Below, piece by piece: positions 10,142 to 48,040 of a DNA stretch of 49,921 nt. The notes beneath the pieces were generated by a model, which was not told the origin of the DNA, ran no database searches, and saw nothing but the letters and a program-made list of their open reading frames with translations. Position numbers and translations under genes: made by a program. Position 1 is the first letter of the stretch; the number at the start of each line of letters is the position of its first letter. The stretch is from a virus. Location of the stretch: the IMG/VR virus record IMGVR_UViG_3300036768_000572, positions 1 through 49,921 of that record; one strand, given 5' to 3'.

Positions 10142-10570
10142 TCACGGGGACTTGATGTCCTTGGACACCTTGCGGAAGGCCGTATTCAGTTCGGAGAACG
10201 TTGACTGAGCCTTCCTCGACGACCACTTCTTGCCGCCCACCTGTTTCTCCAAGTACTGGTCGAGCGGAACGAACGCCTCCTTCCAGTGCTCGTAGTTGCG
10301 GTCGTTCAGGTTCTTGTTGACCGAGGATGCCGAGGCGTCGTTTTCGGCTTCCGTGCTTGCCTCCTCGGCCGAATCGGCCAGACGTTCGCAGTAGTCGGCG
10401 AAGACCTGACGAACAATGGCCTCGGCGGACGTGGCAGCGGGGTTGTCGTCATCGTCCGGGTCGGGCGGAGGCTTCGGCCTTTCGATCTTGACGCAGCCGT
10501 TCACCAGCACCACGCTCGCGAACAGCAGAGGGACCAGTGCATAGGGGGGTAGAACGGTGAATTTATTCAT
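10142..10570 (-). CDS. Predicted lipoprotein (142 aa)
   Basis: ATG 10570 opens a signal peptide (MNKF, then a hydrophobic stretch to VVLVNG) ending in the lipobox LVNG-C, Cys at residue 26. The mature part starts Pro-rich and acidic (PKPPPDPDDDD) and continues as a helical, Ser/Ala/Glu-rich domain. Size and layout resemble an outer-membrane spanin subunit, but no partner is proven. Notably its first 13 codons are written by the 29-nt repeat (10540-10568) that elsewhere lies upstream of genes. SD GGAAAG precedes the start. Confidence 0.75.
   Translation of the reverse strand: MNKFTVLPPYALVPLLFASVVLVNGCVKIERPKPPPDPDDDDNPAATSAEAIVRQVFADYCERLADSAEEASTEAENDASASSVNKNLNDRNYEHWKEAFVPLDQYLEKQVGGKKWSSRKAQSTFSELNTAFRKVSKDIKSP
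10540..10568 (-). repeat. 29-nt start-associated repeat, copy 1 (inside a gene start)
   Basis: Minus strand reads GAATAAATTCACCG then TTCTACCCCCCTATG. Unlike the other internal copies it lies within coding sequence: the A of the start codon is one base before it, and it encodes most of MNKFTVLPPYA in the lipoprotein signal peptide. Confidence 0.85.
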
Positions 10571-10607
10571 GGGATGCTTTCCGAGGGAGAGGCTGGGGCG
10601 GACGGGA

Positions 10608-11057
10608 CTACTTGCTCGCGGGTTCAACGCCGTAGTCGATCTTCTGCTGGGTACCGTCCTTCCACCCGAACTGTGCTCTGAAGAACGTGGGGAATCCGAG
10701 CTTCTTGAAGGTCTCCACCAGCGTCTTGGCCTCGTTGCCGAGGTCGCTGTCCTTCAGCATGTTGTAGATAACCAGAAGCGACTTCAGCTTCTCGATATCC
10801 ACGTTGTTCCCCCCAGAGAGCTTGATGAGCGAGGAAAGGACGCCAAAGACCAGACTGCCGATTCCCGACAGGATGCCGCCGAGAGCCGGCAGGCCCACGT
10901 TGATGACGGCCTCGCTTGGGGAGAGGTTCTGGTCGAGCAGCACCCCACGAGTCTGAAGGGAACCGGCGTTGTACGCCGTGAAGGCGAACAGGAACATTGC
11001 CATGAGCACGAAGACCACGGCGACTCCAGCCAAACCGTACTTCCCAAACTTGGCCAT
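10608..11057 (-). CDS. Membrane protein with two transmembrane helices, holin-like (149 aa)
   Basis: Two hydrophobic segments: residues ~9-30 (LAGVAVVFVLMAMFLFAFTAY) and ~53-77 (VGLPALGGILSGIGSLVFGVL), followed by a soluble helical tail with a Lys-rich patch and GFPTFFRAQFGWKDG. ATG 11057 follows AAAGAG. Two-helix topology and position beside the lipoprotein and protease fit a holin-type lysis protein or membrane anchor, but there is no family signature, so function is inferred only from context. Confidence 0.65.
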   Translation of the reverse strand: MAKFGKYGLAGVAVVFVLMAMFLFAFTAYNAGSLQTRGVLLDQNLSPSEAVINVGLPALGGILSGIGSLVFGVLSSLIKLSGGNNVDIEKLKSLLVIYNMLKDSDLGNEAKTLVETFKKLGFPTFFRAQFGWKDGTQQKIDYGVEPASK

Positions 11058-11102
11058 GATGGGGTCTCTTTCAGAGCAAGGGGGGCGAACGGGGTTGTCA
11101 GT

Positions 11103-11606
11103 CTACTCGGCTGACTTGAGCAAACTTTGCAAGCGATTACGGTGGCGATCAATGAGGCTCTTGTCGCAACCTGTCTGTTCCATCGAGTCCAGTAGAACCT
11201 GAGTCAGGTGGACGAGAGTGCGATGGATTTTGACGTTATTGGTCTGATCGAGGGCCTTGAGCCGTCCCTCGATCACGATCATCAACTGTTCCATCCGTTG
11301 CGTGTGGTCCCTGGTGTCTTTTGCGTTTGTTGCCAGCAGTTCCGTGGCGTCCCGCATCGCCTCGACCATTATCTCCGTGCGACGGAATACGCCAAGGTGG
11401 GCGTTGATGAACGGGATCAGCAAACCCTTCGGGTTGCCATTCTGATCGCAGTCCGTGTCGAACAGCAGCCGGACAACGTACTTGACTCCCTGCACGACCG
11501 TGATGAACAGCCCCGCGAATCCCATGAGAAAGAATCCGACGAGAACCCATACGGGACCGTAGGACTTGAAACTCTCTGGGAAGTCGACTTGACCGAACAG
11601 GCCCAT
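11103..11606 (-). CDS. Membrane-anchored helical protein (167 aa)
   Basis: ATG 11606 follows GAAGGA at nine bases; the frame is open further upstream but without an SD. One strong transmembrane helix at residues ~18-42 (VWVLVGFFLMGFAGLFITVVQG) is followed by a long, charged, helical domain (RRTEIMVEAMRDATELLATNA and onward) likely to form a coiled coil. Not recognised. The N-in anchor plus coiled coil could suit an inner-membrane spanin or a phage envelope factor next to the lipoprotein. Confidence 0.65.
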   Translation of the reverse strand: MGLFGQVDFPESFKSYGPVWVLVGFFLMGFAGLFITVVQGVKYVVRLLFDTDCDQNGNPKGLLIPFINAHLGVFRRTEIMVEAMRDATELLATNAKDTRDHTQRMEQLMIVIEGRLKALDQTNNVKIHRTLVHLTQVLLDSMEQTGCDKSLIDRHRNRLQSLLKSAE

Positions 11607-11619
11607 CGACGTGAATCCT

Positions 11620-11877
11620 TCACTGGTAGAACCCGGAATCGACCGGAACAACCTTGTCCCAGTAGGGAGAAGTCATGCCAATTACCATACCGGTTTCCGC
11701 ATCTCTGAGCAATCGGATTCCGTAGGTTTTCATGGCGTTCTCCGCGGCCCTGTAGTCTGGTGATGAACGTTCGTCGTCCACTTCGAGCACCAAGGCGTAG
11801 TACAGGCAGGCGAAGCGAACAGCACAACAGGGTTTGTCGAGCTTCAGGGCTTCAATTTCCTCCCTGAACTCCGACAT
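11620..11877 (-). CDS. Hypothetical protein (85 aa)
   Basis: Not recognised. A frame is open to 11964, where GGGAGAGG precedes an ATG, but that start would overlap the upstream gene (11852-12160) by 113 bp; the next in-frame ATG at 11877 overlaps by only 26 bp although its SD is weak. Which is used cannot be settled here. The protein starts helical (MSEFREEIEALK), has a short hydrophobic Cys-containing part (CCAVRFACLYYALVLEV) and ends with SPYWDKVVPVDSGFYQ. Confidence 0.55.
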   Translation of the reverse strand: MSEFREEIEALKLDKPCCAVRFACLYYALVLEVDDERSSPDYRAAENAMKTYGIRLLRDAETGMVIGMTSPYWDKVVPVDSGFYQ

Positions 11878-12160
11878 GCTGCCCGCCAGCAACGCACCCG
11901 CGACACGAGAATTGATCTTGCAGGGCTGCCTGAATGGTGTCGGAGATGGAGCATCCGTAGACATAGCCTCTCCCGTGAAGCCGGATGCGGTAGCAGCGAC
12001 CCGCCTTGATCCACTCCGCGATCTTGCGACGCCGCGAAAGGGGAATCCCTCGGTGACGGTTCAGTATATCAGGCGGATGGGTCTTGCTGCTGATCTTTTC
12101 GAGTTTGAACGAATCGAGCTTCAGCAGTTGCGACAACAGGTTCGCGGCGTTCTTCTTCAT
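11852..12160 (-). CDS. Small basic protein coupled to the primase gene (102 aa)
   Basis: ATG 12160 overlaps the primase stop as ATGA and has GGAG seven bases before it, so it is translated with the primase gene. The product is basic and helical at first (MKKNAANLLSQLLKLDSFKL), then RRRKIAEWIKAGRCYRIRLHG; the last ~20 residues, Gly/Cys-rich, overlap the next gene. Not recognised. A helper in replication is possible from position alone. Confidence 0.6.
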   Translation of the reverse strand: MKKNAANLLSQLLKLDSFKLEKISSKTHPPDILNRHRGIPLSRRRKIAEWIKAGRCYRIRLHGRGYVYGCSISDTIQAALQDQFSCRGCVAGGQHVGVQGGN

Positions 12161-14376
12161 GCGTTCTCTCCAGTAGCGGGAGCATCGGGAATCAGGAAAC
12201 CGAGACTGGACGCCAGGTCCGATGTTTCGGGGGACAGGACGTAGGAGAACTGAGGGCGGCCAGAGGCGCCAATCTTGACTGGCTTTGCCCGCACCACTCC
12301 CAGTTCCATCAAGTCCTTCATGCGGTAGCTGACGGTGGTGGGGTGCAGCCCGGTCGCGGAGGCAATCTGCTCCCGATTGGCCCCCGCTCGATGGGCAATG
12401 GCCATGATGATGTCCATGAGGAACGAGTTGCCGGTGTCGAGGGACACCTTGCGGACGATCCTCCAGACTCGTTCATCCGGTTCGGTGATGTTGAACAGGA
12501 TGCACAGGGAGACGCACAACTTGGTCAACTGGGCCGACAGACGCAGACCAAGTTCGAGCCGTGGACGGTAGAGCAGTTGCCTGTCCTTGTCCCGCTTCAC
12601 TTCCGACCGGGCAATGGCCACCCATCGACCGAGGTGGGAAATGTACCGCTTCAGGTCGTGGGCGGATGCGATGCTCTCGGTGATCTGGCGGACAAATGCC
12701 CGATTGGCCGAGCGGCCGTGACATTCCTGAAGGAAACCCCACGTCCATTTCTTCTGAGGGAGGAGCCAGTCGCTATTGTTGTCGTCGGACGCGATGTTGG
12801 CCAGTTCATTGTCGATGGCCCGGATGCAGTGATCATCCTGCCCCGTCTCATCCCTCAGAAGGCGGCCGTGCTCGTCCCACTGACTGTCGATTTCGCATTG
12901 CAGGAACCGCTCGCCGAGGGTTGTGTGATTGTGGGCACGGATGGCGTCGGTCACGCAGGCAATGAGGTTGAACCTGACGCCGTGATGGACTCGCTGGATT
13001 CGATTGCGGTAATGGACGTTGGCGTAGCCGTCGTAGATGTCCCGGAGTTCGCCCATGATGTTCTCTTGGATGGCTGGCGGCAAGTTGAGAACGGTGGTGA
13101 AGTCCTTGATGATCACGGTACGGTTCTGGAAGTGAGGCAAAAGCCCGGCGTCCTGTCCCGCCATGCCGGAATGAATGCCCGTGAACTTCGACAGGGAATA
13201 GCAGTACGGATGGGCCGCGGACTGACATTCGGCCAGACTTGTCTTCCCCGACGATGGCGGACCAATCACATACATCCAAATACCCTTGCTGCCGAGGCTG
13301 ACAGCCAGGTTGATCGCCAGCATGGTCGCGAGAGTGTCCTCGATGCCGGAGGTCATGTAGAACTTGTCGCTGTAGCAGTCGAGCAAGTCCTCGAACGTGG
13401 CGCACACTTCGGGCTGGATGGCGGGGTCGTAGCCATCGTTCGAGGCGGTCTTCACGTCGATGGGGACGCTGACCACCATGCGGGTAATGGAATCGAACAT
13501 GCCTTGCCAGGTGTCGGTGTCGGGGAATTTGTCGGGGCAGCGGCCAGCCACGATGTCCCGGATGTCGAAGCCCTGTGGCAATCCCTCTGGCCATTTCACC
13601 CTCGACAGGGACGCGGGAATGGTCCCCTTCTCCACGACCTTCTGGATGAGCTTCTTCAATCCCGCCTCGCCGGAGTCGTCATTGTCACCCATCCAAATGA
13701 CGTTGCGGCCGGAGAGGATCGTCAGGTACTCATCCGGGAACGTCTTTGCTCCGGGCACGGCCACGAAGTCCACTTCGTCCAACAGCCCATTCCCCCAGAG
13801 AATTCCGTGGAAGGCCAGGGCGTCCCAGTGTCCCTCGCAGATGTAGAGCGGCTTGCTCCTGCCCCCCTTCATGGAAATGCGATGGACTCCGTATAGCAGT
13901 TGCCGCATGATGGGGCTGGACAGGACGGAGCGATAGTGCTCCCCGGCCTTGTCGTCGTAGAGCCACCGCCATGAATAGAGGTTGACCAGTTTGCTGTGCT
14001 GCTGGGACCAAGCCGGCAGCATCCAAATGTCGTGCTTGCGGATGTAGGCAAGCTGCCACTCCTCGCACACTTCCGGGAGCAGGCCGGCCCGGCCAAACCG
14101 CTGATCGGGATCGTTGCAAAGGGCCACGTAGTCCTCTGGTCTGGTGTCGGCCAGGTAGGAGGCGTGGAGCAGTCTAAGGAAGTCGTAGGCATTGCCGTCG
14201 CGGCCGCACCGCTTGCAGTCCCACTGCCCCGTGCCGGGGTTGGCGTAGAAATGAGCATGTGGGTTCGGACAGTCCGGGAACGGGCAGTCTCCCCGCAACT
14301 GTCGATTCTCCGGCCTGACCTCGGTATGCCAGAACCGAAAGAACCGCATCCATTCGGTACCTTCATGGCTCGCCAT
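12157..14376 (-). CDS. Primase-helicase fusion (739 aa)
   Basis: N-terminal zinc ribbon CPFPDC ... WDCKRCGRDG (residues ~31-60), as in DnaG/gp4-type primases. A Toprim-type domain follows: PLYICEGHWDAL (~176) and IWMGDNDDSGEAG (~227) give the metal-binding Glu and Asp residues. The second half holds a P-loop, GPPSSGKTSLAE (~374), and a probable Walker B, RTVIIKDF (~421). The C-terminus has a winged helix-turn-helix (REQIASATGLHPTTVSYRMK). It would lay primers and may unwind at the fork with the polymerase at 14420-16414. ATG 14376 follows a GGAG and the 29-nt repeat at 14393-14421. Confidence 0.88.
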   Translation of the reverse strand: MASHEGTEWMRFFRFWHTEVRPENRQLRGDCPFPDCPNPHAHFYANPGTGQWDCKRCGRDGNAYDFLRLLHASYLADTRPEDYVALCNDPDQRFGRAGLLPEVCEEWQLAYIRKHDIWMLPAWSQQHSKLVNLYSWRWLYDDKAGEHYRSVLSSPIMRQLLYGVHRISMKGGRSKPLYICEGHWDALAFHGILWGNGLLDEVDFVAVPGAKTFPDEYLTILSGRNVIWMGDNDDSGEAGLKKLIQKVVEKGTIPASLSRVKWPEGLPQGFDIRDIVAGRCPDKFPDTDTWQGMFDSITRMVVSVPIDVKTASNDGYDPAIQPEVCATFEDLLDCYSDKFYMTSGIEDTLATMLAINLAVSLGSKGIWMYVIGPPSSGKTSLAECQSAAHPYCYSLSKFTGIHSGMAGQDAGLLPHFQNRTVIIKDFTTVLNLPPAIQENIMGELRDIYDGYANVHYRNRIQRVHHGVRFNLIACVTDAIRAHNHTTLGERFLQCEIDSQWDEHGRLLRDETGQDDHCIRAIDNELANIASDDNNSDWLLPQKKWTWGFLQECHGRSANRAFVRQITESIASAHDLKRYISHLGRWVAIARSEVKRDKDRQLLYRPRLELGLRLSAQLTKLCVSLCILFNITEPDERVWRIVRKVSLDTGNSFLMDIIMAIAHRAGANREQIASATGLHPTTVSYRMKDLMELGVVRAKPVKIGASGRPQFSYVLSPETSDLASSLGFLIPDAPATGENA

Positions 14377-14392
14377 CGAAAGTCGTCTCCTG

Positions 14393-14421
14393 CATAGGGG
14401 GGTAAAGTCGTGAATTTATTC
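14393..14421 (-). repeat. 29-nt start-associated repeat, copy 2
   Basis: Fills nearly the whole gap between polymerase stop and primase start; its 5' end overlaps the polymerase TGA (CCCTGAATAAATTCAC) and its CCCTATG end is 16 nt before ATG 14376, followed by CAGGAG, the SD. Confidence 0.9.
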
Positions 14422-16414
14422 AGGGTTCAGTCTTGCCGGCGGCACACTCAAGTCCTTCCGACCGGTCCCATTCAATCTCCACCGGAATGCCCTCGGACCA
14501 CCGCTTGCTGATGTACTTGGCTTCCACCCGGTACGGAATGCCGAGTTGCTTGCCCGCGTCCTCCATCAGCATCATCAGGGACGCAATGTGGGCATCTCCC
14601 TCGCCCTTGGGGAAGTCGAACACGAGTTCGTCATGCACGTTCATGGCGATGTAGGCGTCTGGACAGTGAGCCAGCAGGTATTCCTCGCAGAGAATCATGG
14701 CAAGCTGGATGATCTCCCCCTCGGTTCCCTGGATGATGTAGTTCGTGGCGGCGTGGGGCTTGTCGTTGCCGAGGGTGAGCTTGTATCCGCCCGCCGTGTA
14801 AACGCAGCCTTCCTTGCTGGCCTTCCTCTTGTTCGATTCGATGTACTTGATGGCCGACGGGAACAGTTCCTTCAGGAGCTTCCAGAGGCCGGGACGCTTG
14901 GCGGTGGTTTCGATCTTCTTGGGTTGTGCCCCGAAGATGAAGCCGAAGTTCACGTTCTTGGCAACACGCTTCTGTCCGTCGTCGCCCTTGATGTACTTGT
15001 CGCCGAATATCTGCTCCTGCATGAATACGTGGAACTTCATGCCCCGCTGGATCGCGTCGATCATGCTCTGTTCCCCGCAGAGATAGGCGAAGATCACGAG
15101 TTGAAGCTGCTGACCATCCACGGCCCACCACTCACGTCCGGGGGCGGGGCCGAACATCTTCCTGAGGGAGACATCGAAGTGCTTCAGTTCCTCGACAAAT
15201 GCTTCTTGATCCTTGCCGATGTTCTGCGTGCTGGGGTTCGACATGGAGAAGCGAAGCGTGGCGGTCCCAGTGATGTTCGTGTCGGGGTAGAGCTTGCCAT
15301 TGATGGCCGCCCGCTTGTACCGGTCCAGGTCCGTCACCGCCTTGGCGAGCTTCTTCGATGACAGGTGGGCCACGGCGAATCGGTACACGGGACTGTCGGG
15401 TTCGTTTGCCTGCATGATCTCCAGCACGGCGTCCCGATTGGTCGCGGGCTGGGGGACGCCCTTCTGTCCTCCGTCCGTCCAGTGATTGATGGGCTGTTGA
15501 AAGTGCTCGTAGAAAGCCTTGGCGGAGTCTATCGGGGAATTTGGGTTATAGTGATCCCAGCCGAGAATGTTTTGAGCCTCCTGTCGGAACTGCTCGGAGA
15601 GGGCCTTGCACCGCTTCATTTCGCCGGGAATTTCGTGCTCCAGCAGGCCGATACCGTGCTTGCGCCCACGGAAGATGATCGGCAGGAGCTTCAGGCGTTT
15701 GCGGTAGTGCCGGGTGAGTTCCTGCTGTTCGAGGGCCAGCATCAGGGACTTATGGGCGACCAGGGTGCGGAGTGTGTCCCCTTCGCAGTACCGTTGCACC
15801 AAGTACAGCCAGTCGTGATCGTCCCACTGACCGGGTTCTCGCTCTTGCAGGTAGTGGATGTAGGCGGCGGGCAGAAACATATCGGCCACCCACCAGCCAT
15901 CGCCTTTCTCGTCCTTCGGAGACTTGCGTGCCCACGGGAAGGTCTGAAGGCTGGCGATCCTCCAGCCGAGACGTTCGGCATAGCCCCTGACAGTCTGCAC
16001 GGCTTCCCGAAGCTCGGACTGATCGGTGTCCCCAATACCCAGCATGATGCCGATGTCCTTGAGGCCGTGCCTGCCGCCGGAGTCGATGGCGTGGTGGGCG
16101 AGCATGGTGTCCTCGATGCGGTCCCATAGGGACTCAACATCGAGGTCGATGCCACAGTCCCTCATCGCCGTCCACAGGGCGGTGAGGTCGAAAATCGCGT
16201 TGTGGAAGACCAGTCTGTGATTGGCGTCTTCCAGCAGCGTCTTGATGAGGTGGAGATCGTCTGGTTCGTAGAGTACCTGCCGGTTGACGGGGTTCACTCT
16301 CCACTCGAACCAGAGCTTTCGTCCGGTATCAAATCGGAGGGAAACCGCAAAGGGGCGGCAGCCATGAAACAGTTCCGCACCCGTGGCTTCAGTGTCAATG
16401 CCAAGGCAAAGCAT
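14420..16414 (-). CDS. Family A DNA polymerase with 3'-5' exonuclease (664 aa)
   Basis: Exonuclease motifs: LGIDTEATG (residues ~4-12), FHNAIFDLTAL (~95) and YCEGDTL (~210). Polymerase motifs: RFSMSNPSTQN, motif A VDGQQLQLVIFAYLCGE (~432, with Leu where most members have Arg), motif B KRVAKNVNFGFIFG (~487, Phe in place of the common Tyr) and motif C NVHDELVFDF (~610). There is no 5'-nuclease domain, as usual for phage replicative enzymes of this class. ATG 16414 follows AAGAGG. It lies with primase, uracil glycosylase and recombination genes and is presumably the replicase. Confidence 0.95.
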   Translation of the reverse strand: MLCLGIDTEATGAELFHGCRPFAVSLRFDTGRKLWFEWRVNPVNRQVLYEPDDLHLIKTLLEDANHRLVFHNAIFDLTALWTAMRDCGIDLDVESLWDRIEDTMLAHHAIDSGGRHGLKDIGIMLGIGDTDQSELREAVQTVRGYAERLGWRIASLQTFPWARKSPKDEKGDGWWVADMFLPAAYIHYLQEREPGQWDDHDWLYLVQRYCEGDTLRTLVAHKSLMLALEQQELTRHYRKRLKLLPIIFRGRKHGIGLLEHEIPGEMKRCKALSEQFRQEAQNILGWDHYNPNSPIDSAKAFYEHFQQPINHWTDGGQKGVPQPATNRDAVLEIMQANEPDSPVYRFAVAHLSSKKLAKAVTDLDRYKRAAINGKLYPDTNITGTATLRFSMSNPSTQNIGKDQEAFVEELKHFDVSLRKMFGPAPGREWWAVDGQQLQLVIFAYLCGEQSMIDAIQRGMKFHVFMQEQIFGDKYIKGDDGQKRVAKNVNFGFIFGAQPKKIETTAKRPGLWKLLKELFPSAIKYIESNKRKASKEGCVYTAGGYKLTLGNDKPHAATNYIIQGTEGEIIQLAMILCEEYLLAHCPDAYIAMNVHDELVFDFPKGEGDAHIASLMMLMEDAGKQLGIPYRVEAKYISKRWSEGIPVEIEWDRSEGLECAAGKTEP

Positions 16415-16471
16415 CGTGCAGCCTCTTGCGGAGGTTTGGTGTACCGGCGTAACGCCAAGCCCCAGTAACGT

Positions 16472-17177: not shown

Positions 17178-17181
17178 GGGT

Positions 17182-17280: not shown

Positions 17281-17290
17281 CACCCATCAA

Positions 17291-20227: not shown

Positions 20228-20256
20228 CATAGGGGGGTTATCCGGTGAATTTATTC
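20228..20256 (-). repeat. 29-nt start-associated repeat, copy 3
   Basis: Minus strand GAATAAATTCACCGG then ATAACCCCCCTATG, 14 nt before ATG 20213 and followed by CAGGGGAGG, the SD. It starts 4 nt after the stop of 20261-20725. Confidence 0.9.
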
Positions 20257-20260
20257 CCTG

Positions 20261-20725
20261 TCACCGAGCCTTGGCGTAACGAGGGTCGTCAATGCCATAG
20301 TGCTCGGCCCGTTCCTTGCACTTCTGAGGGGAGAGTGGTTCGCCGGTGTACGAATCTATGGCCTGACCCTGGCTGTTGTACCGCAGGGAGACATAGACGG
20401 GCTTACCGCCCATGCGTCCCGTGTTGTAGTTCGACCGCCAAATGGCGACGCGGTTCCGGCCGGAGTTCAGGGAGTTCATCACGTCGGGATAATCGCCGAA
20501 CTCAGCCCTCACGAGGCTGGCGATCTCGGCGTCGGTCAGTCGCTCGTTTTCGTTCAGTTCGTTCTGCTCGAACACGTAACGTAGAAAAGCGAACAGCCGC
20601 AGACCACTCACCTTCCCGGTCGGGTGCTTGGTCGTAATGTCACTACTCTCGGTAACGGTCAGGGTTCGCTGACCAATCCTCAGTTGTTTCTGTCGTGGTG
20701 ACGATTCATTGACGGTCGTTTGCAT
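20261..20725 (-). CDS. Hypothetical protein (154 aa)
   Basis: Not recognised. ATG 20725 follows AAAGG and lies about 45 nt after the predicted start point of the promoter at 20775-20803. A helical middle (LRLFAFLRYVFEQNELNENE, LTDAEIASLVRAEFGDYPDV) suggests a small DNA-binding fold of the winged type, followed by a beta segment (RMGGKPVYVSLRYNSQGQ). It heads the leftward replication operon, opposite the helicase gene, so a regulatory role is possible. Confidence 0.7.
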   Translation of the reverse strand: MQTTVNESSPRQKQLRIGQRTLTVTESSDITTKHPTGKVSGLRLFAFLRYVFEQNELNENERLTDAEIASLVRAEFGDYPDVMNSLNSGRNRVAIWRSNYNTGRMGGKPVYVSLRYNSQGQAIDSYTGEPLSPQKCKERAEHYGIDDPRYAKAR

Positions 20726-20774
20726 AATGGCGCCTTTGCAGCAATGTATCAGCAGTGTCGCCGACGTGTAGGGA

Positions 20775-20803
20775 AGTGTAAGGGACGGGAGCCAGGTTGT
20801 CAA
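20775..20803 (-). promoter_or_regulatory. Leftward promoter of the replication block
   Basis: Minus strand TTGACA (20798-20803), 17-nt spacer, TACACT (20775-20780). It directs 20725-20261 and, by read-through, the genes below. It is back to back with the rightward promoter at 20857-20885. Confidence 0.8.
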
Positions 20804-20856
20804 TCCCTTTTGCCAACATTCCGTGAAGCGCTTGACCGCTCCCATCCGACAATGAC

Positions 20857-20885
20857 TTGACAGTGATCGCTACTGTTTGCATACT
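20857..20885 (+). promoter_or_regulatory. Rightward promoter of the helicase operon
   Basis: TTGACA (20857-20862), 17-nt spacer, CATACT (20880-20885). The following GGTACTGTTTGGGTACACC has a weak GTAC/GTAC dyad. About 55 nt to ATG 20940. Confidence 0.8.
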
Positions 20886-26380: not shown

Positions 26381-27298
26381 TCACTCATCGTCGGGTTCCT
26401 CGAACTCCGTCACGTTGCTCAAGTCCAAGGTCAAGTCGCGGTGGCCAATGGCGATGACGCAGTACTGGTCGGCGTCGGGGAAGTAGATCGCGGCCACCTG
26501 CACGCCGGCCCTCGCGGGAGATTGCCGGGCCAAATGGAACCGGTCGCGAACCACCACCGTCTCCCCCGTGGGGGATTCATTGTATTGGGCCGACGCAATG
26601 ACCGACAAACCCCGCATGAACACTGGCGGGTCGGCATTCAGGTCTTCCTCGGCGTAAATAACAATCTGGGCGTCCGCCGAGGTCACGCCGCCTTGCGAGA
26701 TGACGGGCTGATCAAACTCGATGATCCAGGCACCGACGTAGCTTCGTCGATCCGGTTCGTCGTCGGTGGGCTTTGGCAGGTCGTCGTGCAAGTTCGGTTC
26801 GTCGTCGTTCGATACCAATCCCTCGTCGTAGTACGGATTGCCGATCCACACCCTCAGAGTGTCTCTCGTCCAAAGACCGCCGGCGGCCGCCAGGATCGCA
26901 TCCCGGACTTCATCCGCCCGACTGACAACCGACAGGGCCGATGTCACGAACAGGTCGGTCGACGAGGGCGTTCCCGCCGAGTCGTAGGTAATGGCGGCGA
27001 ACCGCAACTGGAACGTCGAATCGGGTACCGGATTCACGCCGATGACTTCCACGCGATAGCAGTTCAGGCTCTCCCGCCACTGAAGTTCCTCCGCCAACGC
27101 CGATCCGCCCCCGTGCAAGTCTTGGAGCAGCAGGAAGGACTTGGGCGGCGGGAAGTCCATCGAACGGGGCAAGTCCCTCGGCTGAACCGGTCCGGCACGA
27201 TCCGGGGTCAGATTGTTGATCCGCTCCCGCTTGCCCCATTCGAGGAGTTCGTTGATTTTCGCCTCGGACGCCGGCGTCAGGTAGATTTCCTCGTGCAT
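26381..27298 (-). CDS. Hypothetical late protein, probable virion component (305 aa)
   Basis: Not recognised. ATG 27298 is 38 nt after the end of the 29-nt repeat; the SD is weak (AGG). The N-terminal ~40 residues are helical, the rest beta-rich, and a central acidic stretch (NDDEPNLHDDLPKPTDDEPD) separates two domains. Phrases such as GRIRVEV-like strands are absent; there is no lysin, protease or glycosidase motif. It follows the giant tail protein and a structured 290-bp intergenic region, so it is probably a separately controlled tail or adhesion protein. Confidence 0.6.
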   Translation of the reverse strand: MHEEIYLTPASEAKINELLEWGKRERINNLTPDRAGPVQPRDLPRSMDFPPPKSFLLLQDLHGGGSALAEELQWRESLNCYRVEVIGVNPVPDSTFQLRFAAITYDSAGTPSSTDLFVTSALSVVSRADEVRDAILAAAGGLWTRDTLRVWIGNPYYDEGLVSNDDEPNLHDDLPKPTDDEPDRRSYVGAWIIEFDQPVISQGGVTSADAQIVIYAEEDLNADPPVFMRGLSVIASAQYNESPTGETVVVRDRFHLARQSPARAGVQVAAIYFPDADQYCVIAIGHRDLTLDLSNVTEFEEPDDE

Positions 27299-27312: not shown

Positions 27313-27365
27313 CATGGGGAGGTGCATAGGGGGGTACATAGGGTGGTCAAGCCGTGAATTTATTA
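27313..27365 (-). repeat. 29-nt start-associated repeat, copy 4, with reiterated 3' end
   Basis: The repeat proper is 27337-27365 (minus strand TAATAAATTCACGG then ACCACCCTATG). Its CCCTATG end is repeated twice more: TACCCCCCTATG (27325-27336) and CACCTCCCCATG (27313-27324), three 12-nt units leading to ATG 27298. Confidence 0.85.
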
Positions 27366-36279: not shown

Positions 36280-37072
36280 TTCTTCCGTTTCCTCACTTGG
36301 CTTTCAGCCCAAGCCTGCATTCGATGAGCCAGGGCCAGGGACATTTCGTCTTCCATCATCAGCATTTGCTCGTACCGATTGTCGAGCCGCTGGCATTCCT
36401 CCGACCGGTGCAACTGCCACTCGGCATCCCTCAGAGTGGCGGCCAGGAGCATCGTCAGGTAGTTGACTTCATTGTTCTGAGGGCGGATTGCGTAGTACGC
36501 CCTCATCAGCATCAACTCCCAAGGGAGCCAGATTCTCCGTTTCCCGTGCTTGAGTTTTCGGAGCTTGCGGACGGGAACTCCGATTCTGTCCGCGAGGGTA
36601 CAGAGGAAGATGAGTTCTCCGTCCCGCTTGAGTTTTTTACCAGCACCTTGAGCAGTTGTTCGTCTTCGATCATGCCGTTGACGTGGTACACGACACGGGC
36701 CATGTTGTTCAGCATGAACCCGGCTGATTCCTCGATCAGTAGCGGAGCATCGGTGGGCTTGAACACCGGTTTGCCCTCGGCGTCGAGCAAGCCGATGATG
36801 CAAGCCCATGCCATTGAGTTCGGATCGTAGAATTTGCCGTTGCCAACTCTCGCGATCTTGTCGTACAGATCACGAAAGTCTGGCCCGTCCAGCACCTTCG
36901 AGAACAGCCTTTCTCCGCCGGGGCAACAGTCGGATGGCAGGGGTACGCCAGGGTCGCTGTCCGTGCCGCCCAGGTCGTTGCGGATTTTCCCCCGGCTCAA
37001 CGCGGAAAGAACCTTTTCCCGGATCGCGGAATAGGTTCTGTTACCCTGTTCGATCTTCTCGGACTTGGCCAC
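36276..37072 (-). CDS. Tail assembly chaperone, -1 frameshift fusion product (about 265 aa)
   Basis: Two overlapping frames immediately before the tape measure gene: the first from GTG 37072, the second ending at 36276 in the -1 frame. Shifting at A AAA AAC (36632-36638) would join ...EQLLKVLVKK to LKRDGELIFLCTLADRIGVP, giving about 147 + 118 residues. The downstream part is helical and basic (ends ESQVRKRKK). This copies the gpG/gpGT scheme of lambda and many siphophages, in which the fusion assists tail tube assembly around the tape measure. Confidence 0.82.
36512..37072 (-). CDS. Tail assembly chaperone, unshifted product (186 aa)
   Basis: GTG 37072 follows AAGGGA and the 29-nt repeat. 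Core region: SKVLDGPDFRDLYDKIARVG, YDPNSMAWACIIGLLDAEGK, MLNNMARVVYHVNG, all helical. Without frameshifting translation continues into a Ser/Thr/Glu-rich tail and stops at 36512. Usually the unshifted form is in large excess over the fusion. Confidence 0.8.
   Translation of the reverse strand: MAKSEKIEQGNRTYSAIREKVLSALSRGKIRNDLGGTDSDPGVPLPSDCCPGGERLFSKVLDGPDFRDLYDKIARVGNGKFYDPNSMAWACIIGLLDAEGKPVFKPTDAPLLIEESAGFMLNNMARVVYHVNGMIEDEQLLKVLVKNSSGTENSSSSVPSRTESEFPSASSENSSTGNGESGSLGS
36570..36638 (-). promoter_or_regulatory. Programmed -1 frameshift signal
   Basis: Slippery heptamer A AAA AAC in the correct frame (36632-36638), a 7-nt spacer, and a stem of GGACGG-(A)-GAACTC (36612-36624) with GAGTTCCCGTCC (36570-36581): 12 pairs with a single bulged A. 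All three parts of a classical bacterial -1 frameshift site are present. Confidence 0.85.
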
Positions 37073-37086: not shown

Positions 37087-37115
37087 CATAGGGAGGTCAA
37101 GCGGTGAATTTATTC
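37087..37115 (-). repeat. 29-nt start-associated repeat, copy 5
   Basis: Minus strand GAATAAATTCACCGC then TTGACCTCCCTATG, 14 nt before GTG 37072, followed by CAAGGGA (SD). Its 5' end overlaps the hairpin 37112-37150. Confidence 0.9.
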
Positions 37116-37160: not shown

Positions 37161-37580
37161 TTATACGTGGGTTCCGGGGGTGATGGTCGGCTCCCCGCTC
37201 GGCGTGATCGTGCAGACCTGAACCATCCGGTCTTCCAGCGAACCACGAGTGGCAATGCGGGTTGCCGCCCCACGGAAGGACACGGTTCCAGGGGTTGTGT
37301 AGTTGCCGGGAATCGACCAGGTAATGGTGATGGTTTCCGGGTCAGCTTCGAGGACCGACTTCCAATCACCGTTCGGGTCGAAGGCGATGGTGCATTGCAT
37401 CGGCGTCATCCGCTTGATGCAGCTATAGATCACTTCGGCCCATTCGGTGCCGGAGTGGCTGGCGTCAACGGTTCGTCGCTCACCGCCAAGTTCGGAGAGT
37501 TCGAGGAGCTTCCCGAAGAATCCAGACTGGAAGGTGATGGCGGTCCCGCAGAGCATGATCTGGTCGTTGGCACCGGACAT
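37161..37580 (-). CDS. Major tail tube protein (139 aa)
   Basis: Between the tail terminator candidate and the tail chaperones, the standard slot for the tube protein. The sequence is a compact beta-sandwich type (GTAITFQSGFFGKLLELSEL, GERRTVDASHSGTEWAEVI, MQCTIAFDPNG, ETITITWSIPG), size typical of siphophage tube subunits. ATG 37580 follows AAAGGAT. A hairpin lies just downstream, consistent with high expression. Assignment from order and style rather than a sharp motif. Confidence 0.75.
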   Translation of the reverse strand: MSGANDQIMLCGTAITFQSGFFGKLLELSELGGERRTVDASHSGTEWAEVIYSCIKRMTPMQCTIAFDPNGDWKSVLEADPETITITWSIPGNYTTPGTVSFRGAATRIATRGSLEDRMVQVCTITPSGEPTITPGTHV

Positions 37581-39378: not shown

Positions 39379-39380
39379 TC

Positions 39381-40999: not shown

Positions 41000-41035
41000 G
41001 ATTGAGTTCCTGTAAGGCTAAGGGTCGGAGTAGGA

Positions 41036-41103
41036 CCCCGGCCCCGTGTGGAGGCTGACACAGGGCCGGGGCGACAAGTCCGGGTTGGAGTAGCACAACC
41101 CGG
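41036..41103 (-). terminator. Two hairpins between capsid gene and 40526-40999
   Basis: First after the capsid stop on the minus strand: CCGGGTTG/CAACCCGG (41080-41087, 41096-41103). Second: a 9-bp G+C stem CCCCGGCCC/GGGCCGGGG (41036-41044, 41063-41071) extended by GTGT/ACAC. Neither has a T-run; they probably reduce read-through or protect the capsid mRNA. Confidence 0.65.
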
Positions 41104-41113
41104 CGAGCAGCTA

Positions 41114-42553: not shown

Positions 42554-42554
42554 T

Positions 42555-42570
42555 GTTCGTCTCCACGAAC
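42555..42570 (-). promoter_or_regulatory. SD-presenting hairpin of the capsid gene, CsrA-site-like
   Basis: Minus strand GTTCGT-GGAG-ACGAAC, then A and ATG 42553: a perfect 6-bp stem with the SD GGAG as its whole loop. CsrA proteins bind GGA in such loops. The phage encodes CsrA at 19023-19340. Confidence 0.6.
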
Positions 42571-42607
42571 GGGTTAATCGTAGGTCATCTCGACCGAAGT
42601 GTGATTT

Positions 42608-42636
42608 ATTAAAGCGGGTTGATACCCGGTTTGCAA
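42608..42636 (-). promoter_or_regulatory. Promoter of the major capsid gene
   Basis: Minus strand TTGCAA (42631-42636), 17-nt spacer, TTTAAT (42608-42613), about 48 nt of leader to ATG 42553. The -10 differs from TATAAT at one base. Confidence 0.7.
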
Positions 42637-42656
42637 GAATGGAATCCCACAAATTT

Positions 42657-43361
42657 TCAGGCAGCGGTTTCAAGCTCCAACAGGGCCAGACGCCGGGCAG
42701 CGGCGGCGAGAGTCGTGCCGTTCCTCTCGGCCACTTTCCTTGCCCGGTCCCGCATGAATTCGATGTAGTTGTTCGGCTTGAACGCCTTGAAGGCCGCCGT
42801 GGCTTCCGGGAAGCGGTTCATGTCCGCCTCGGAAGTCTCGTCCACCAGGTCGGCGAACCCGGCCTTGACGGCTTCCTCGGCGTTCATGTAGGTCTCGGCG
42901 TCGAGCAGGTCGAAGATGTCGGCTTCACTCTTGCCCGTCCGCCTTGCGTAAATTTGAACCAGGTTGGCATCGGACTGATCAAGCCGGTCCGCGATCTTCC
43001 GCAGTTCCCTGGCATTACCCATGCCGAGCGTCCATACGCGGTGAACCATCTGCATCGAGCCACGGTTCATCACGATCTTGTCGCACGCCATCAGCAGCAC
43101 CGAGGCCGCGGAGAAGGCGTACCCGTCCACGATACCCGTGACCACGTAGTCCTTGTTGAAGGCCCTCTGCTGCGTGGCGAAGCGGCGAATCTGGTTGAAC
43201 ATCGTAATGCCATCCGCGACCGAGCCGCCGAGGCTGTTGACGTAGATGTTCAATGGATCGCTGCTTGGAACCTTGGCGAGCATTTCACCGAACCGGCTCG
43301 GCGTCATGCCGTCGAAGTATTCCCCGATGTCCTCGTAGATTTGAATGTCGGCCACGGTCAC
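42657..43361 (-). CDS. ClpP-like prohead protease (234 aa)
   Basis: Crotonase/ClpP fold: YVNSLGGSVADGITMFNQIR (residues ~40-59), GYAFSAASVLLMACDKIVM with the nucleophile Ser (~80), MVHRVW with the catalytic His (~105), and YMNAEEAVKAGFADLVDE (~157). ClpP-type head maturation proteases lie between portal and capsid genes exactly like this. GTG 43361 overlaps the portal stop as GTGA; GTG 43355, better spaced from GGGAGA, is an alternative start. Confidence 0.9.
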   Translation of the reverse strand: MTVADIQIYEDIGEYFDGMTPSRFGEMLAKVPSSDPLNIYVNSLGGSVADGITMFNQIRRFATQQRAFNKDYVVTGIVDGYAFSAASVLLMACDKIVMNRGSMQMVHRVWTLGMGNARELRKIADRLDQSDANLVQIYARRTGKSEADIFDLLDAETYMNAEEAVKAGFADLVDETSEADMNRFPEATAAFKAFKPNNYIEFMRDRARKVAERNGTTLAAAARRLALLELETAA

Positions 43362-44782
43362 TCTCCCTTCCTCGGCTTGGGTTTGGGCTTGGCTTTTTTC
43401 TGAGGGGAAGGCACGTCCTCGGTGTCGGACGCGGCCGGGTTGCGGATCATGGCCACGCCATTGGCAACGTCCTCAAGCGTCATCAACTGCGAGGCCATGA
43501 TGAGGGGTTTCGCTCCGATGCCTCCGGGGTAGGCTGGTCGATTCTGCTTGGCCCGCCATTCATCCGGGGTGAGAGCACCATTGCGAAGTTCCCGTTCGAG
43601 GGCTTCGGCACGGGACACGGAGTCGCCACGGAGCAGGGAGTCCATGTCGAACTCGACGTAGTAGTTGAACTGCTCGTCCGGCGTGAACAGTTTCATGTTG
43701 CACTCGGACTCCCAACGCTTCACCCACGGGAGCATGGTGAAGGTCACGAACTCGATCAGCATGTGTTCGATGTTATCGAACGTGGACTTGGAAAGGTCGG
43801 CCAGCATGTGGGGCGGCACTCCGAACCAGCGGGCCACCTCCGACACCTGGAACAGGCGGAGTTGGACAAACTCCATGTCCTTGAGCGACATGCCGGTGGG
43901 CTTCCAGTCCCATCCCCCAGAAAGCACGCCTACTCGGTGGGCATTCTCCAGTCCGGCGTGCATTTCCTCCCACTCACGCTGAATCTGCTTGCGTTCCTTC
44001 TCTCCGATCCGGTTGGGACGGGTCAGGAAGCCGGGAGGAGTGCCGCCCTGCGAGAAGTAGCGGCTGATATGCTCCTCGGACGCCAAGGCGACTCCGATGG
44101 ACTCACGGGCACGAGTTATCGGGGCCTTGCCGATCAGGCCGTCCCACGAGGGAGCACGCAGATGGAAGATGTCGCGGGCACCGAGTTCAATTCCTCGTTC
44201 CCGACTCGGACTGTAGATGTAATACTGCGGGCGACCGGTCTTGCGGTCGATCCTCACGCTCACGTTGGACGGTTCGAGCAGGTGAAGCTCGACAGCCCGT
44301 CCTCGGCCATCCCTCACGATTTCCGCGTAACCATTGCCCACCAGCAGGGCGTGCTGAGTTAGCGACTCGAAGAAGGAAAACGACGAGCGGATGCCATCCG
44401 GGCTGACGTTGAGCAGGCGGTAGCTTGGGTGCTTGCGGGCTGTTTCCCGGTCGTTGTTGTCCGTGGCGTCGGCCCGGCGGTATGTCTTCTTCGAGAGCAG
44501 GGCGGCACACTCGCTGATGATCGACACCGCCCGATAGATGGCCGCGAACGTCAGGGCGGTGTCGGGCGTGACATCGACACCGGAGCGGGTTGGCTGGCGG
44601 ACGCCCCATACCTCGGCCAAGCGGGGATTCGATGGGTGCAAGCCCTCGTTCCGGTCTTGCTGTCTCCGCTTGCCCCTCGGCTTGGACTTGCCGCTCTTGC
44701 CGCGACCAGACGGGGTGGCACTGCCCCGATGTGGTCGAGGGATCGTGCGAACATTGGGTCGGGAAGCAGGCGTCCTGGGCAT
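43358..44782 (-). CDS. Portal protein, HK97 type (474 aa)
   Basis: Core portal features: VTPDTALTFAAIYRAVSIIS (residues ~71-90), FFESLTQHALLVGNGYAEIV, LHLLEPSNVSVRIDRKTGRP, FHLRAPSWDGLIGKAPITRA, SQGGTPPGFLTRPN, and VSEVARWFGVPPHMLADLSK (~315). Basic N-terminal 45 residues and a Lys/Pro-rich tail (QKKAKPKPKPRKGE). ATG 44782 follows AGGA just after the terminase stop. It forms the dodecameric DNA gate of the head and docks terminase. Confidence 0.92.
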   Translation of the reverse strand: MPRTPASRPNVRTIPRPHRGSATPSGRGKSGKSKPRGKRRQQDRNEGLHPSNPRLAEVWGVRQPTRSGVDVTPDTALTFAAIYRAVSIISECAALLSKKTYRRADATDNNDRETARKHPSYRLLNVSPDGIRSSFSFFESLTQHALLVGNGYAEIVRDGRGRAVELHLLEPSNVSVRIDRKTGRPQYYIYSPSRERGIELGARDIFHLRAPSWDGLIGKAPITRARESIGVALASEEHISRYFSQGGTPPGFLTRPNRIGEKERKQIQREWEEMHAGLENAHRVGVLSGGWDWKPTGMSLKDMEFVQLRLFQVSEVARWFGVPPHMLADLSKSTFDNIEHMLIEFVTFTMLPWVKRWESECNMKLFTPDEQFNYYVEFDMDSLLRGDSVSRAEALERELRNGALTPDEWRAKQNRPAYPGGIGAKPLIMASQLMTLEDVANGVAMIRNPAASDTEDVPSPQKKAKPKPKPRKGE

Positions 44783-44786
44783 GTGG

Positions 44787-47225
44787 TCATCCTGACCGTC
44801 GTGTCTTCACCTTGGCGGTCTTCTCGGTCGTTGTGTCCGAGGGCGGGAACAAGGCAATGCTGTTGAACCCGTGGTATTCGCTGCGAATCGTTGGGTCGTC
44901 CAACATCATAGCAACCGCCATGATCATTGCAATAACGCCGTCGACTTTTCGGTAGTCCTGTCCTTCCGGCTTCATGGGTTTCTTGTTGCCGTTCTTGTCT
45001 TCCTGCACGACAACGTGCGACATCTGCCAATTCAGTACGGCATTGTCCTCGTGCATCAAGTGTTGATTCAAAATCAGGCGTTCGGTGTCGGCGGTGGGCG
45101 GGGCCATGTTGGGCATGTTCTGCCGGACTTCCACCATCTGATCCTCGGACCACCCGTAGTCGTTGTAGAGGATGTCCATGAGCGTGTCGGAGTTGTACGG
45201 GTCGTAGCCAATGGTCCGCAGGTCGAAGTTCTCCACGAGGTCGTCCAGCCGCTTCGCCAGCATGTCGTAGTCGATGGTCCGACCCTTCACGATGGTCAGG
45301 TACGGACGGAACGTGTCCTTGAAGAAGTCGATCTTGTTCGCATACATGACGGCGGTGCGTTCAGGCAGCCAGAACTCCACATGCAGGTAGGGCCGCACGC
45401 CGATGTCGTCGTCCGGCATGGCGAACAGCAAGGCCAAGGCAGTCATGTCGCGAGTCTTGGAGAGGTCCAACCCGCCAAAGCACGGGTACTCGGCCAAGTC
45501 GGCGAGATTGTATTTCTTGGGGGCCTTGCAGGCCATCCAGTCCGGGTAGGCGATCCAGTTGGCGGACGCGGACATCCAGCGATTGAGGCGGTACATGGCG
45601 AACTTGTTCAGTTCGGTCTGGGAACCGACTGACTGCCGCCAATCCGACTTGAACTCACTGAGGAGGATGATCCGGCCCATCGAGGGATTGCACTCTTGCC
45701 CCAGGGCCATGACGGTCTTCTCGTCGTACAGCCTCTCGATGGGAGTGTCATTCGGGATCGAGAAGTTCAGGACGTAGTGCTCCGGGTCGTAGAGTTCGCC
45801 GGAGAGCAATCGCATACAGTGCTCGTAGCGTTCGTACCCGTACCCATCGCCGGAGTCGCCGGCCGTGGACATCTCGATGTGGAGCGGTTCCGAGCGGCTG
45901 ATGCCAGCCCGCTTGACCCGATCCATGATCTTGTGGTCGACGACGTGCACCTCGTCCACGAGCAGCGAGCCATTGTAACCCTCGGCCGAACCGAGCTTGG
46001 CGTTCTCCGACGAGACGAGAATGTACTTGGATCGGGTTGGCTTGTGGAAGATGTCGTAGTTGGTCATGTAAATCTGGCACTCACGAGACAACGGCTCGGA
46101 GAACCGGACCATCTCCATTGCGTGCGTGTGGCTGATGAGTCCTTGCTTGCTGTCCTTGGCGATGGAGTAGCACTTCTGCCCGTACTCACCGTCGCCGCAG
46201 AGCAGGTACAAGCCATTGGCGGCAAGAGTGGGGCTGTTGTGCGTGGCCACCATTGATGTGCCGGCCAGGAACAACTCGGATGGACTGTCCACCTTGATGC
46301 AACGGGTTGGAACAGTCTCCACCCGCTCGACGGAGGCTATGTGCCGATAGCAGCCGTGGATAGCTGGAATGCGATGATTGCTCGCCCACGAAGCACCAGT
46401 TGCCTTTCGATGCAGCGTGCAGTTCCGGGCAAGCTCCTCCGTGGTCATAATCCTCGGCTTGTAGTCCGAAGTGTATGACTCAACCCGCCAGAGGTGATTA
46501 CCGCTGGCCACAATCGAGCTGTGGTCGGAGAACGTCACCCGGTAGCACGGCTCGTGGAAGATTTCCGACACGGCAAGGACGGTACAGGGTTTGCCTTGCT
46601 CGTCGAACAGCGTATCTCCGACAACCAATTCCCCCATCGTCTTCCAGCCATGCAGCGTGGGGATCGGAGTGTCGAGAGCCAGTGCCTTGGCGTTCTTCTT
46701 CGGAATCCAAGCGTTAGCCCGCCGGAAGCGGCGAATCCATCGACCACGTTCCTCGGAGTAGCGGACCCAGCCGTAAACCTGCATGTCCCACTCGTACTGC
46801 CAGTCCTCGATGTCCATCGGCATTCCGGCCTTGTCGCCCTCGTACAGGTAGCAATACTCCTGCATCCAGTCCACGACGAACTGGCCACGGGCCTCGTCGA
46901 ACCGGCAGCCTTCCTGGGCGGCCCGCTCGTCGTTCGCGTTCCTGATCCAGCGGCGGGTCACTCGGTCGATGCAACAGGCGGGCTTCAGCTTGGCGATGTG
47001 GAAGGGTGCCCGCTGGATCATCGCGGCCCATCGAGGAGGGCCGTTGAATTCCTTCACCAACTCGGAAACGGGCTGTGGTGTCTCCCGCCGCGGCTTGGGC
47101 GGTGGCGGCGTGGTGACGGTGCGGGGGCGGTCGACCTTGACCTCCCCGTCAAACGGCTGACCAGTAGCGTCCAGAATCGCCTTCACACGACCGACAGCGG
47201 GTTTCGGTGGGGTTTTCGTCAACAT
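44787..47225 (-). CDS. terL: Terminase large subunit interrupted by a mini-intein (812 aa)
   Basis: Terminase ATPase and nuclease: Walker A IPKKNAK|SPTLAANG, split by a 150-residue intein (residues 181-330); Walker B SLLVDEVHVV (~432); nuclease motifs FGGLDLSKTRDMTALALLF (~590) and DGVIAMIMAVAMM near the end. Spliced, it would be 662 residues, the normal size. ATG 47225 is the first ATG after the late promoter; its SD is weak. The enzyme packages and cuts phage DNA with TerS (48060-48584). The small and large genes are, unusually, 834 bp apart. Confidence 0.93.
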   Translation of the reverse strand: MLTKTPPKPAVGRVKAILDATGQPFDGEVKVDRPRTVTTPPPPKPRRETPQPVSELVKEFNGPPRWAAMIQRAPFHIAKLKPACCIDRVTRRWIRNANDERAAQEGCRFDEARGQFVVDWMQEYCYLYEGDKAGMPMDIEDWQYEWDMQVYGWVRYSEERGRWIRRFRRANAWIPKKNAKALALDTPIPTLHGWKTMGELVVGDTLFDEQGKPCTVLAVSEIFHEPCYRVTFSDHSSIVASGNHLWRVESYTSDYKPRIMTTEELARNCTLHRKATGASWASNHRIPAIHGCYRHIASVERVETVPTRCIKVDSPSELFLAGTSMVATHNSPTLAANGLYLLCGDGEYGQKCYSIAKDSKQGLISHTHAMEMVRFSEPLSRECQIYMTNYDIFHKPTRSKYILVSSENAKLGSAEGYNGSLLVDEVHVVDHKIMDRVKRAGISRSEPLHIEMSTAGDSGDGYGYERYEHCMRLLSGELYDPEHYVLNFSIPNDTPIERLYDEKTVMALGQECNPSMGRIILLSEFKSDWRQSVGSQTELNKFAMYRLNRWMSASANWIAYPDWMACKAPKKYNLADLAEYPCFGGLDLSKTRDMTALALLFAMPDDDIGVRPYLHVEFWLPERTAVMYANKIDFFKDTFRPYLTIVKGRTIDYDMLAKRLDDLVENFDLRTIGYDPYNSDTLMDILYNDYGWSEDQMVEVRQNMPNMAPPTADTERLILNQHLMHEDNAVLNWQMSHVVVQEDKNGNKKPMKPEGQDYRKVDGVIAMIMAVAMMLDDPTIRSEYHGFNSIALFPPSDTTTEKTAKVKTRRSG
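46236..46685 (-). other. Class 3-like mini-intein in the TerL P-loop (150 aa, no endonuclease)
   Basis: It starts ALALDTPIPTLHGW, with Ala where most inteins have the nucleophilic Cys1, and ends GTSMVATHN before the +1 Ser. Block B reads VASGNHLWRV (Trp), block F TRCIKVDSPSELFL (Cys), block G contains THN (Thr). This Trp-Cys-Thr set with a non-nucleophilic residue 1 defines class 3 inteins, in which the block F Cys starts splicing. There is no homing endonuclease domain. Splicing restores PKKNAKSPT, so terminase is inactive until it occurs. Confidence 0.85.
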
Positions 47226-47275
47226 CGTGCCTGTCTCAATACATTCGACAAGCGTCCAGTACTTCGCAACTGTAC

Positions 47276-47305
47276 ACTATATTGGGACTCGGTAGCGCTG
47301 GTCAA
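47276..47305 (-). promoter_or_regulatory. Late promoter upstream of terL
   Basis: Minus strand TTGACC (47300-47305), 18-nt spacer, TATAGT (47276-47281), about 44 nt of leader to ATG 47225. The -35 is the last part of element B. Confidence 0.7.
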
Positions 47306-47467
47306 CCCGGACCATTTCCAGCCAACCTAGCGCCAAATTGCGTAGGATTGCGCCAGAGGCACGATCCTCGAAAAGACGGGTCAATGGTCGTCCGCGAGGA
47401 TCGTCGATTCTAGGGCCATTTACGGCGATTTGGCGCCCATAGCGTCTGTTCAGTGTACTGTGTACAC
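47300..47467 (-). repeat. Element B: 168-bp element, partner of 3106-3273
   Basis: Read on the minus strand it starts with palindrome GTGTACACAGTACAC (47453-47467), contains arms GCGCCAAATCG and CAATTTGGCGC (47426-47436, 47330-47340), and ends in TTGACC. Relative to element A the stem change G to A is matched by C to T in the other arm. A second dyad (GTACAC-N4-GTGTAC, 47462-47477) overlaps the first. Its place between terS and terL also fits a packaging (cos/pac) or late-control site. Confidence 0.8.
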
Positions 47468-47477
47468 TTATGTGTAC

Positions 47478-47700
47478 AATGTTCACTGGTTTACCGATTC
47501 GAGCCAAGCGAACTGGCCACGGACCCCTGGGCAGGGAGTTGGCGAACTGGTCGCGGACCCCTGGGCAGGGAGCTCTCGCCAACGGGCAAGGAAACCCCCG
47601 CCCCTATCGCTAGAGGCGGGGGCCATCCCGCTGGAGTCCGCCGTGACCCCAACACAGCGAACTCCCGAGCCATTGTGGCTCGCCGGGGCGGCCCGGTCAA
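47478..47700. other. Gene-free interval: 34-bp direct repeat and G+C hairpin
   Basis: Two 34-bp repeats beginning GCGAACTGG and containing GGACCCCTGGGCAGGGAG (47508-47575), then a hairpin CCCCCGCC/GGCGGGGG (47595-47602, 47615-47622) followed on the minus strand by GTTTCC, which may end the terS transcript. No gene is supported. Confidence 0.6.
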
Positions 47701-47712
47701 CTGGCCCTCCGG

Positions 47713-48040
47713 GAATAAATTCACGGCCTGACCAGGGTATGGCACTTTCCCCCCGATCCCCCCCACTATTCCCCCCCTATTCCCCCCTTTTATTCTCTGA
47801 GAGAGATATATTATTTATTTATCTATTCTGCGCATGCGCAAGAGATACTGTACAGATGTAGATACATGTACTGATCAGGTGGACAGATTTGTTCTTTCTG
47901 AGGGTGGTACATACCCTGGTCAGTTGGTGAATTTATTCTTTCTGAGGGTGGTACATACCCTGGTCAGTTGGTGAATTTATTCTCTCTGGGGGGGAATAGT
48001 GGGGGGGAGGGGAATAAATTCACCGGCTAACCAGGGTATG
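47713..48040. repeat. Cluster of four 29-nt repeats around G/C tracts and an AT-rich core
   Basis: Copies at 47713-47741 (plus), 47910-47938 and 47954-47982 (minus, inside a 44-bp tandem duplication) and 48012-48040 (plus), all of the variant ending ACCAGGGTATG or its ACC(C/T) equivalent. Between them: C-tracts with CACTATTCCCC (47742-47787) and mirror G-tracts (47987-48010), an AT-rich core (47806-47826) and the palindrome TGCGCATGCGCA (47829-47840). Could be origin, packaging site or operator hub. No gene is seen. Confidence 0.8.

Follow-up and report, generated by a model that had tools for sequence, protein, structure and literature searches.

A 29-nt phage-specific motif at gene heads and in a candidate origin-like cluster of an uncultured HK97-type phage

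What might be the role of one asymmetric 29-nt sequence that stands singly at the heads of genes and again, in several copies, between the two terminase genes of the same phage? This question is raised by IMG/VR virus record IMGVR_UViG_3300036768_000572, the complete 49,921 bases of which form the window analyzed here. The record derives from an uncultured HK97-type phage and is classed as linear, and therefore may be a fragment. An earlier note had listed nine copies of the sequence with an invariant spacing of 29 nt and two sub-types, all of which proved exact. The motif reads GAATAAATTCAC-N6-ACC-N-SSS-TATG and occurs in exactly nine strong copies (Table 1), with 0 expected from 100 dinucleotide shuffles. 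In a weight-matrix scan of the record these nine sites reached 39.6-41 bits, the next site 16 bits, and noise at most 8.5 bits. The left half, AATAAATTCAC, is identical in 9 of 9 copies and exceeds expectation more than any other 11-mer of the record. The spacer of six nt is variable, ACC (positions 19-21) and TATG (positions 26-29) are invariant, and A is found at position 31 in 8 of 9 copies. Positions 23-25 define the sub-types, being CCC in all five internal copies (NCCCTATG) and GGG in all four copies of the cluster (AGGGTATG). Cluster copies B and C derive from one 44-bp tandem duplication, which leaves about eight independent copies. A fifth, degenerate cluster copy that had been spotted by eye (47866-47895) was dropped because it lay under the weight-matrix threshold. 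Thus, the motif is a real phage-specific site whose copies are, unusually, divided between the heads of genes and a cluster that resembles an origin.

All five internal copies are located on the transcribed strand and near the start of a minus-strand gene. The probability of the latter by chance is about 1e-6, with about 6% of positions qualifying as near, based on our own gene model and on an interval of -40 to +30 that was set after the sites had been seen. This supports the proposal of the earlier note that an asymmetric, phage-specific motif is tied to gene heads. Four of these copies indeed lie upstream of starts, whereas internal copy 1 lies inside its gene. The best start of this gene probably is the ATG at 10570, which is accompanied by the Shine-Dalgarno (SD) sequence GGAAAG and a lipoprotein-like N terminus, MNKFTVLPPYALVPLLFASVVLVNGC, with the motif forming the first codons. 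A spacing of 14-16 nt to the start codon, as described before, was found for internal copies 2, 3 and 5 but not for copy 4, which lies at 38 nt and whose right half is present three times at 12-bp steps. The motif was also said to run into the SD; it reaches up to the SD but ends before it and does not contain it. The note had stated that the motif contains no sigma-70 promoter, and nothing like such a promoter was detected at the internal copies either.

The remaining four copies are situated in both orientations within the 834-bp gap between the genes of the small (terS) and the large terminase (terL). Their number and orientations had been recognized before, but the DNA that they flank had been missed. 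It is the AT-richest, least stable block of the whole record, with a GC content of 26% in the best 50-bp segment vs 34% in the next one, and of 32% vs 40% at 75 bp. This position of the cluster points to an origin-like element, and we infer that it represents an origin-like locus. All genes near copies A and D run antisense to these copies, and no plus-strand gene follows either of them. A perfect 21-bp inverted repeat rich in G-runs, TCCCCCCCACTATTCCCCCCC, was also observed within the cluster (47757-47777 / 47988-48008).

Table 1. Copies of the 29-nt motif, the AT-rich block, candidate binding proteins and marker genes in the window
Feature	Position	Strand	Remarks
Internal copy 1, CCC	10540..10568	-	just inside the 5' end of a lipoprotein-like gene
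Internal copy 2, CCC	14393..14421	-	overlaps the polA stop codon; ends 16 nt before the primase-helicase start
Internal copy 3, CCC	20228..20256	-	ends 14 nt before a uracil-DNA-glycosylase-like gene
Internal copy 4 (TAATAAATTCAC)	27337..27365	-	38 nt before gene 26381-27298
Two extra tandem right halves after copy 4	27313..27335	-	12-bp step
Internal copy 5, CCC	37087..37115	-	14 nt before a tail-assembly-chaperone-like gene; place kept in relative G001
Cluster copy A, GGG	47713..47741	+	3' end toward the AT block
Cluster copy B, GGG	47910..47938	-	3' end toward the AT block; in the 44-bp tandem duplication
Cluster copy C, GGG	47954..47982	-	second copy of the 44-bp duplication; TATG end toward the AT block
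Cluster copy D, GGG	48012..48040	+	directed away from the AT block, toward terS
AT-richest, least stable block (candidate unwinding element)	47778..47875	.	between copies A and B
Degenerate tenth copy	3523..3552	-	16 bits; spacer 1 bp longer; no gene start nearby
Primase-helicase-like protein (leading candidate binder)	12157..14376	-	Toprim, P-loop, C-terminal winged helix-turn-helix
Small protein (second candidate binder)	20261..20725	-	winged-helix-like low-confidence model; inferred start
Small helix-turn-helix protein (third candidate binder)	3739..4065	-	helix-turn-helix
Small terminase (terS)	48060-48653	-	gene annotation
Large terminase (terL)	44787-47225	-	gene annotation
DNA polymerase A (polA)	14420-16414	-	gene annotation

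Relatives were searched for by alignment-based methods. One syntenic relative was found, the nearest one, G001 (IMGVR_UViG_3300007072_000068; 17 kb; loci L080/L161), whose identity in the aligned parts is 56% for TerL, 57% for the major head protein and 51% for the portal; single-protein scans with the primase and the portal found no relative. In G001, AATAAATTCAC occurs once (9884-9894). It lies in a gap of 25 bp that is flanked by the orthologs of 37161-37580 and 36512-37072 and is the exact counterpart of the place of internal copy 5 before the tail-chaperone gene. Only 5 of 1000 shuffles of G001 contained AATAAATTCAC anywhere, and less than 0.1% of its positions, counted on both strands, fall within the gap. 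The right half differs and reads GGGGGTATAT with the ATG of the gene, hence only the left half is conserved. At the one start that could be compared, the left half of the motif, at least, thus appears to be conserved, in line with the idea that the motif is kept at orthologous starts. The sequence of G001 does not extend over the replication genes.

In the other relatives the motif was not detected, and a de novo search for repeats in relatives revealed nothing comparable; a repeat in G007 looks like terminators. No match to the full motif was obtained in the other viral contigs or in the GTDB genome contigs scanned, an argument against a host signal. In phages, BLAST of the motif yielded only chance matches to parts of it. 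A relaxed 15-base form gave 63 matches, which is about chance level, none of them with the right half. Among 49 matches to the form found in L161, only G001 encodes relatives of the window's proteins with the motif in place. A match to AATAAATTCAC in L164 is located within a gene of a low-GC phage.

In the explanation that we favor, one DNA-binding protein encoded by the phage recognizes the 29-bp motif. At 47713-48040, several molecules of this protein would assemble beside the AT-rich DNA and melt it. Each copy that stands alone at the head of a gene block would bind the same protein and thereby tune transcription or read-through of this block; such copies may also titrate the protein. Nine sharp copies with no intermediates speak for such a site. 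The cluster copies lie on both strands, and DNA-level recognition is therefore favored over recognition in RNA. Furthermore, the antisense position of copies A and D with respect to nearby genes, and an RNA folding at the starts that was no better than that of shuffles (z -0.5 to +1.6), make recognition at the DNA level the simpler reading.

The binder most likely would be the primase-helicase-like protein encoded at 12157-14376. It is our leading candidate because of its C-terminal winged helix, its layout resembling the alpha protein of phage P4, and the location of internal copy 2 at the head of its own gene. According to a review of replication proteins (PMC4234260), P4 alpha is a Toprim-type primase, which binds the origin repeats via a winged helix before unwinding and priming. 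In the candidate protein the Toprim domain scored 27.5 bits (cut-off 22.1) and the winged helix-turn-helix (HTH) at 654-720 scored 22.9 bits, narrowly above the Pfam cut-off of 21.9; the P-loop reads GPPSSGKTS. The low-confidence model of the second candidate displays the order helix-helix-helix-strand-strand, and a fold search with the model of the third candidate gave no significant match.

Several observations weigh against this explanation. Known iterons are confined to origins, but here five copies are found at scattered genes. An AT-rich intergenic block can also be a promoter region. In the primase-helicase the superfamily 3 (SF3) helicase family was not recognized and the C-terminal HTH match is weak, and the choice of binder is a guess among at least three proteins. 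G001 is devoid of a cluster between terS and terL, and its 54-bp gap from terS to the next gene holds no copy; the conservation seen is that of one left-half site and does not include the origin part. Finally, the record may be incomplete. The full mechanism, combining one protein, an origin-like cluster and control at operon heads, is therefore put forward tentatively, with somewhat less than an even chance of being correct. A more specific version is rather doubtful: through the two sub-types, CCC at operon heads and GGG in the cluster, a single initiator, namely the primase-helicase with a winged helix of its own, might open the origin as well as switch gene blocks genome-wide, which would couple replication to expression.

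A separate regulator may instead occupy each copy, which would act as a stoperator-like operator or roadblock at which elongating RNA polymerase is blocked or modulated as it enters a gene block. Asymmetric sites that follow one orientation along the transcribed strand, and that lie in short intergenic gaps or at gene starts, would be suited to this task. Two small HTH-like proteins are encoded, and the sites upstream of terL might form a regulator cluster, as a sigma-70-like promoter lies at 47305-47276. However, the cluster copies occur in both orientations, and nine copies are few compared with the 20-30 reported for Cluster A phages. Moreover, no integrase, immunity repressor or parAB family was recognized among the proteins of the record, which is possibly incomplete and encodes unassigned small HTH proteins. 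We regard this explanation as rather unlikely.

The orientation of the internal copies, 5 of 5 being co-directional with the genes that they head, together with the lack of a sigma-70-like promoter there, also suits a phage-specific promoter. In this case single copies would start operons and transcripts from the cluster would prime replication into the AT block, similar to the primary origin of T7, at which promoter transcripts prime replication. Three copies end 14-16 nt before the start codon with the SD in between, as expected for a transcript starting at the end of the motif, and copies A, B and C are directed into the AT block. This explanation is nevertheless unlikely. CCC or GGG instead of AT-rich DNA would immediately precede the presumed start, internal copy 1 lies inside its gene, the start codon in G001 is within about 16 nt of the left half, and copies A and D have no plus-strand gene behind them. 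Neither a T7-type RNA polymerase (PF00940; search without positive control) nor sigma region 2 (PF04542) was found in the possibly incomplete record.

It is quite improbable that the motif is a start-associated element acting in mRNA on the level of translation. Although copies are close to start codons and the C-run could pair with the SD in internal copies 3 and 5, the SD is outside the motif, copy 1 comes after its start codon, two cluster copies run antisense to every gene nearby, and start-region RNA folding did not exceed that of shuffles. A packaging site (pac or cosB-like) bound by the small terminase, with the dispersed copies as secondary sites, would agree with repeated sites in both orientations between terS and terL, but is very improbable given the empty 54-bp gap behind terS in G001 and the gene-head copies that it leaves unexplained.

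The minus strand carries most genes of the record. In addition to those in Table 1 these comprise portal, head protease, major head protein, connector and tail genes as well as genes for a Sak4-like protein and a uracil-DNA glycosylase, and a gene for a UvrD-like helicase is located on the plus strand. Divergent sigma-70-like promoters were observed at 20726-20876, between 20261-20725 and the UvrD-like gene. No close relative of the record was present in the phage collection searched, and a TerL scan of genome contigs found neither host nor prophage. The large terminase contains an insert of about 150 aa (residues 181-330) that is not present in G001 and has the look of a small intein.

A number of further features were seen toward the ends of the record. 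The product of the plus-strand gene 1893-2903 shares 28-32% identity with products of genes that are located within terminal repeats in Caulobacter phiCbK-type phages and near the left ends of other phages, which suggests an early gene. Short tandem-repeat arrays with units of 8-17 bp and 27 bp are found at 1-230, 1094-1318, 3557-3742 and 48801-49123, in the early region near both ends of the record. A perfect 20-bp palindrome, CGGCCAGGTGCACCTGGCCG, at 49902-49921 terminates the record and possibly marks a true end of the genome or a break in the assembly. The long minus-strand gene block is bounded by an inverted-repeat pair of about 150 bp (3098-3249 / 47325-47475; 77-86% complementary) with GTGTAC palindromes inside. 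The sequence CCCTCAGAA has 15 occurrences vs about 0.4 expected, on both strands and both within and outside coding DNA, and pyrimidines usually stand before it; sites include 12752, 12852, 20322, 21042, 22732, 24209, 27414, 36475, 40418, 43398, 47896, 47940, 48121 and 48365.

Two known systems, stoperators and start-associated sequences (SAS), had been named as parallels of the motif, but membership fails in both cases. Stoperators of Cluster A mycobacteriophages are 13 bp long, present in 20-30 copies and bound by the immunity repressor (PMC6550527). Like these L5-type sites, the motif is asymmetric, dispersed, phage-specific and mostly oriented with transcription, a rule that is held by the five internal copies but not by the cluster. 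Unlike them, it is 29 bp long, shares no sequence with them, has too few copies and forms a cluster of both orientations around AT-rich DNA; a repressor or integrase was not recognized in the possibly incomplete record. A stoperator-like way of working is possible.

SAS of Cluster K mycobacteriophages are 13 bp long, contain the SD (AGGAG), lie 3-7 bp before starts and precede only non-structural genes (PMC3203893). With these and the extended SAS (ESAS) the motif shares its asymmetry, its predominant single orientation, its link to gene starts and its absence from host genomes. It differs in that the SD lies outside and that the spacing is 14, 14, 16 or 38 nt, or the copy is within the gene. 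The gene classes differ as well, since two copies of the motif head tail genes, internal copy 5 preceding the tail-chaperone-like gene.

In lambdoid origins iterons are located beside an AT-rich tract (PMC7466680). As in iteron origins, exemplified by P4 alpha with the ori repeats and lambda O with the ori iterons, repeated sites in the window stand beside the AT-richest DNA. The encoded Toprim primase-helicase with its C-terminal winged helix is a further likeness to the P4 alpha system, and it might bind the origin. In contrast to iterons, which are confined to origins, five copies with a different right half are found at gene heads. The arrangement also resembles the T7 promoters and primary origin in that a single directional sign is used both for gene blocks and next to origin-like AT-rich DNA, but no polymerase was found in the record, GC-only runs precede the presumed start, and there is no shared sequence.

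Cluster O mycobacteriophages (Corndog), which are without integrase, possess dispersed 17-bp repeats of unknown function, many of them intergenic or near the 5' ends of genes (PMC4351075). The motif likewise is dispersed and phage-specific, whereas the Cluster O repeats are palindromic, amount to 34 copies and show no link to starts. Our motif falls among the dispersed phage control sites. To our knowledge, no function has become known since 2011 for dispersed phage signs at gene starts such as SAS and the Corndog repeats. In the window the same sign is found again, in a base-swapped sub-type, around an origin-like block, and the phage encodes a candidate binder; direct binding therefore could reveal the purpose of such signs.

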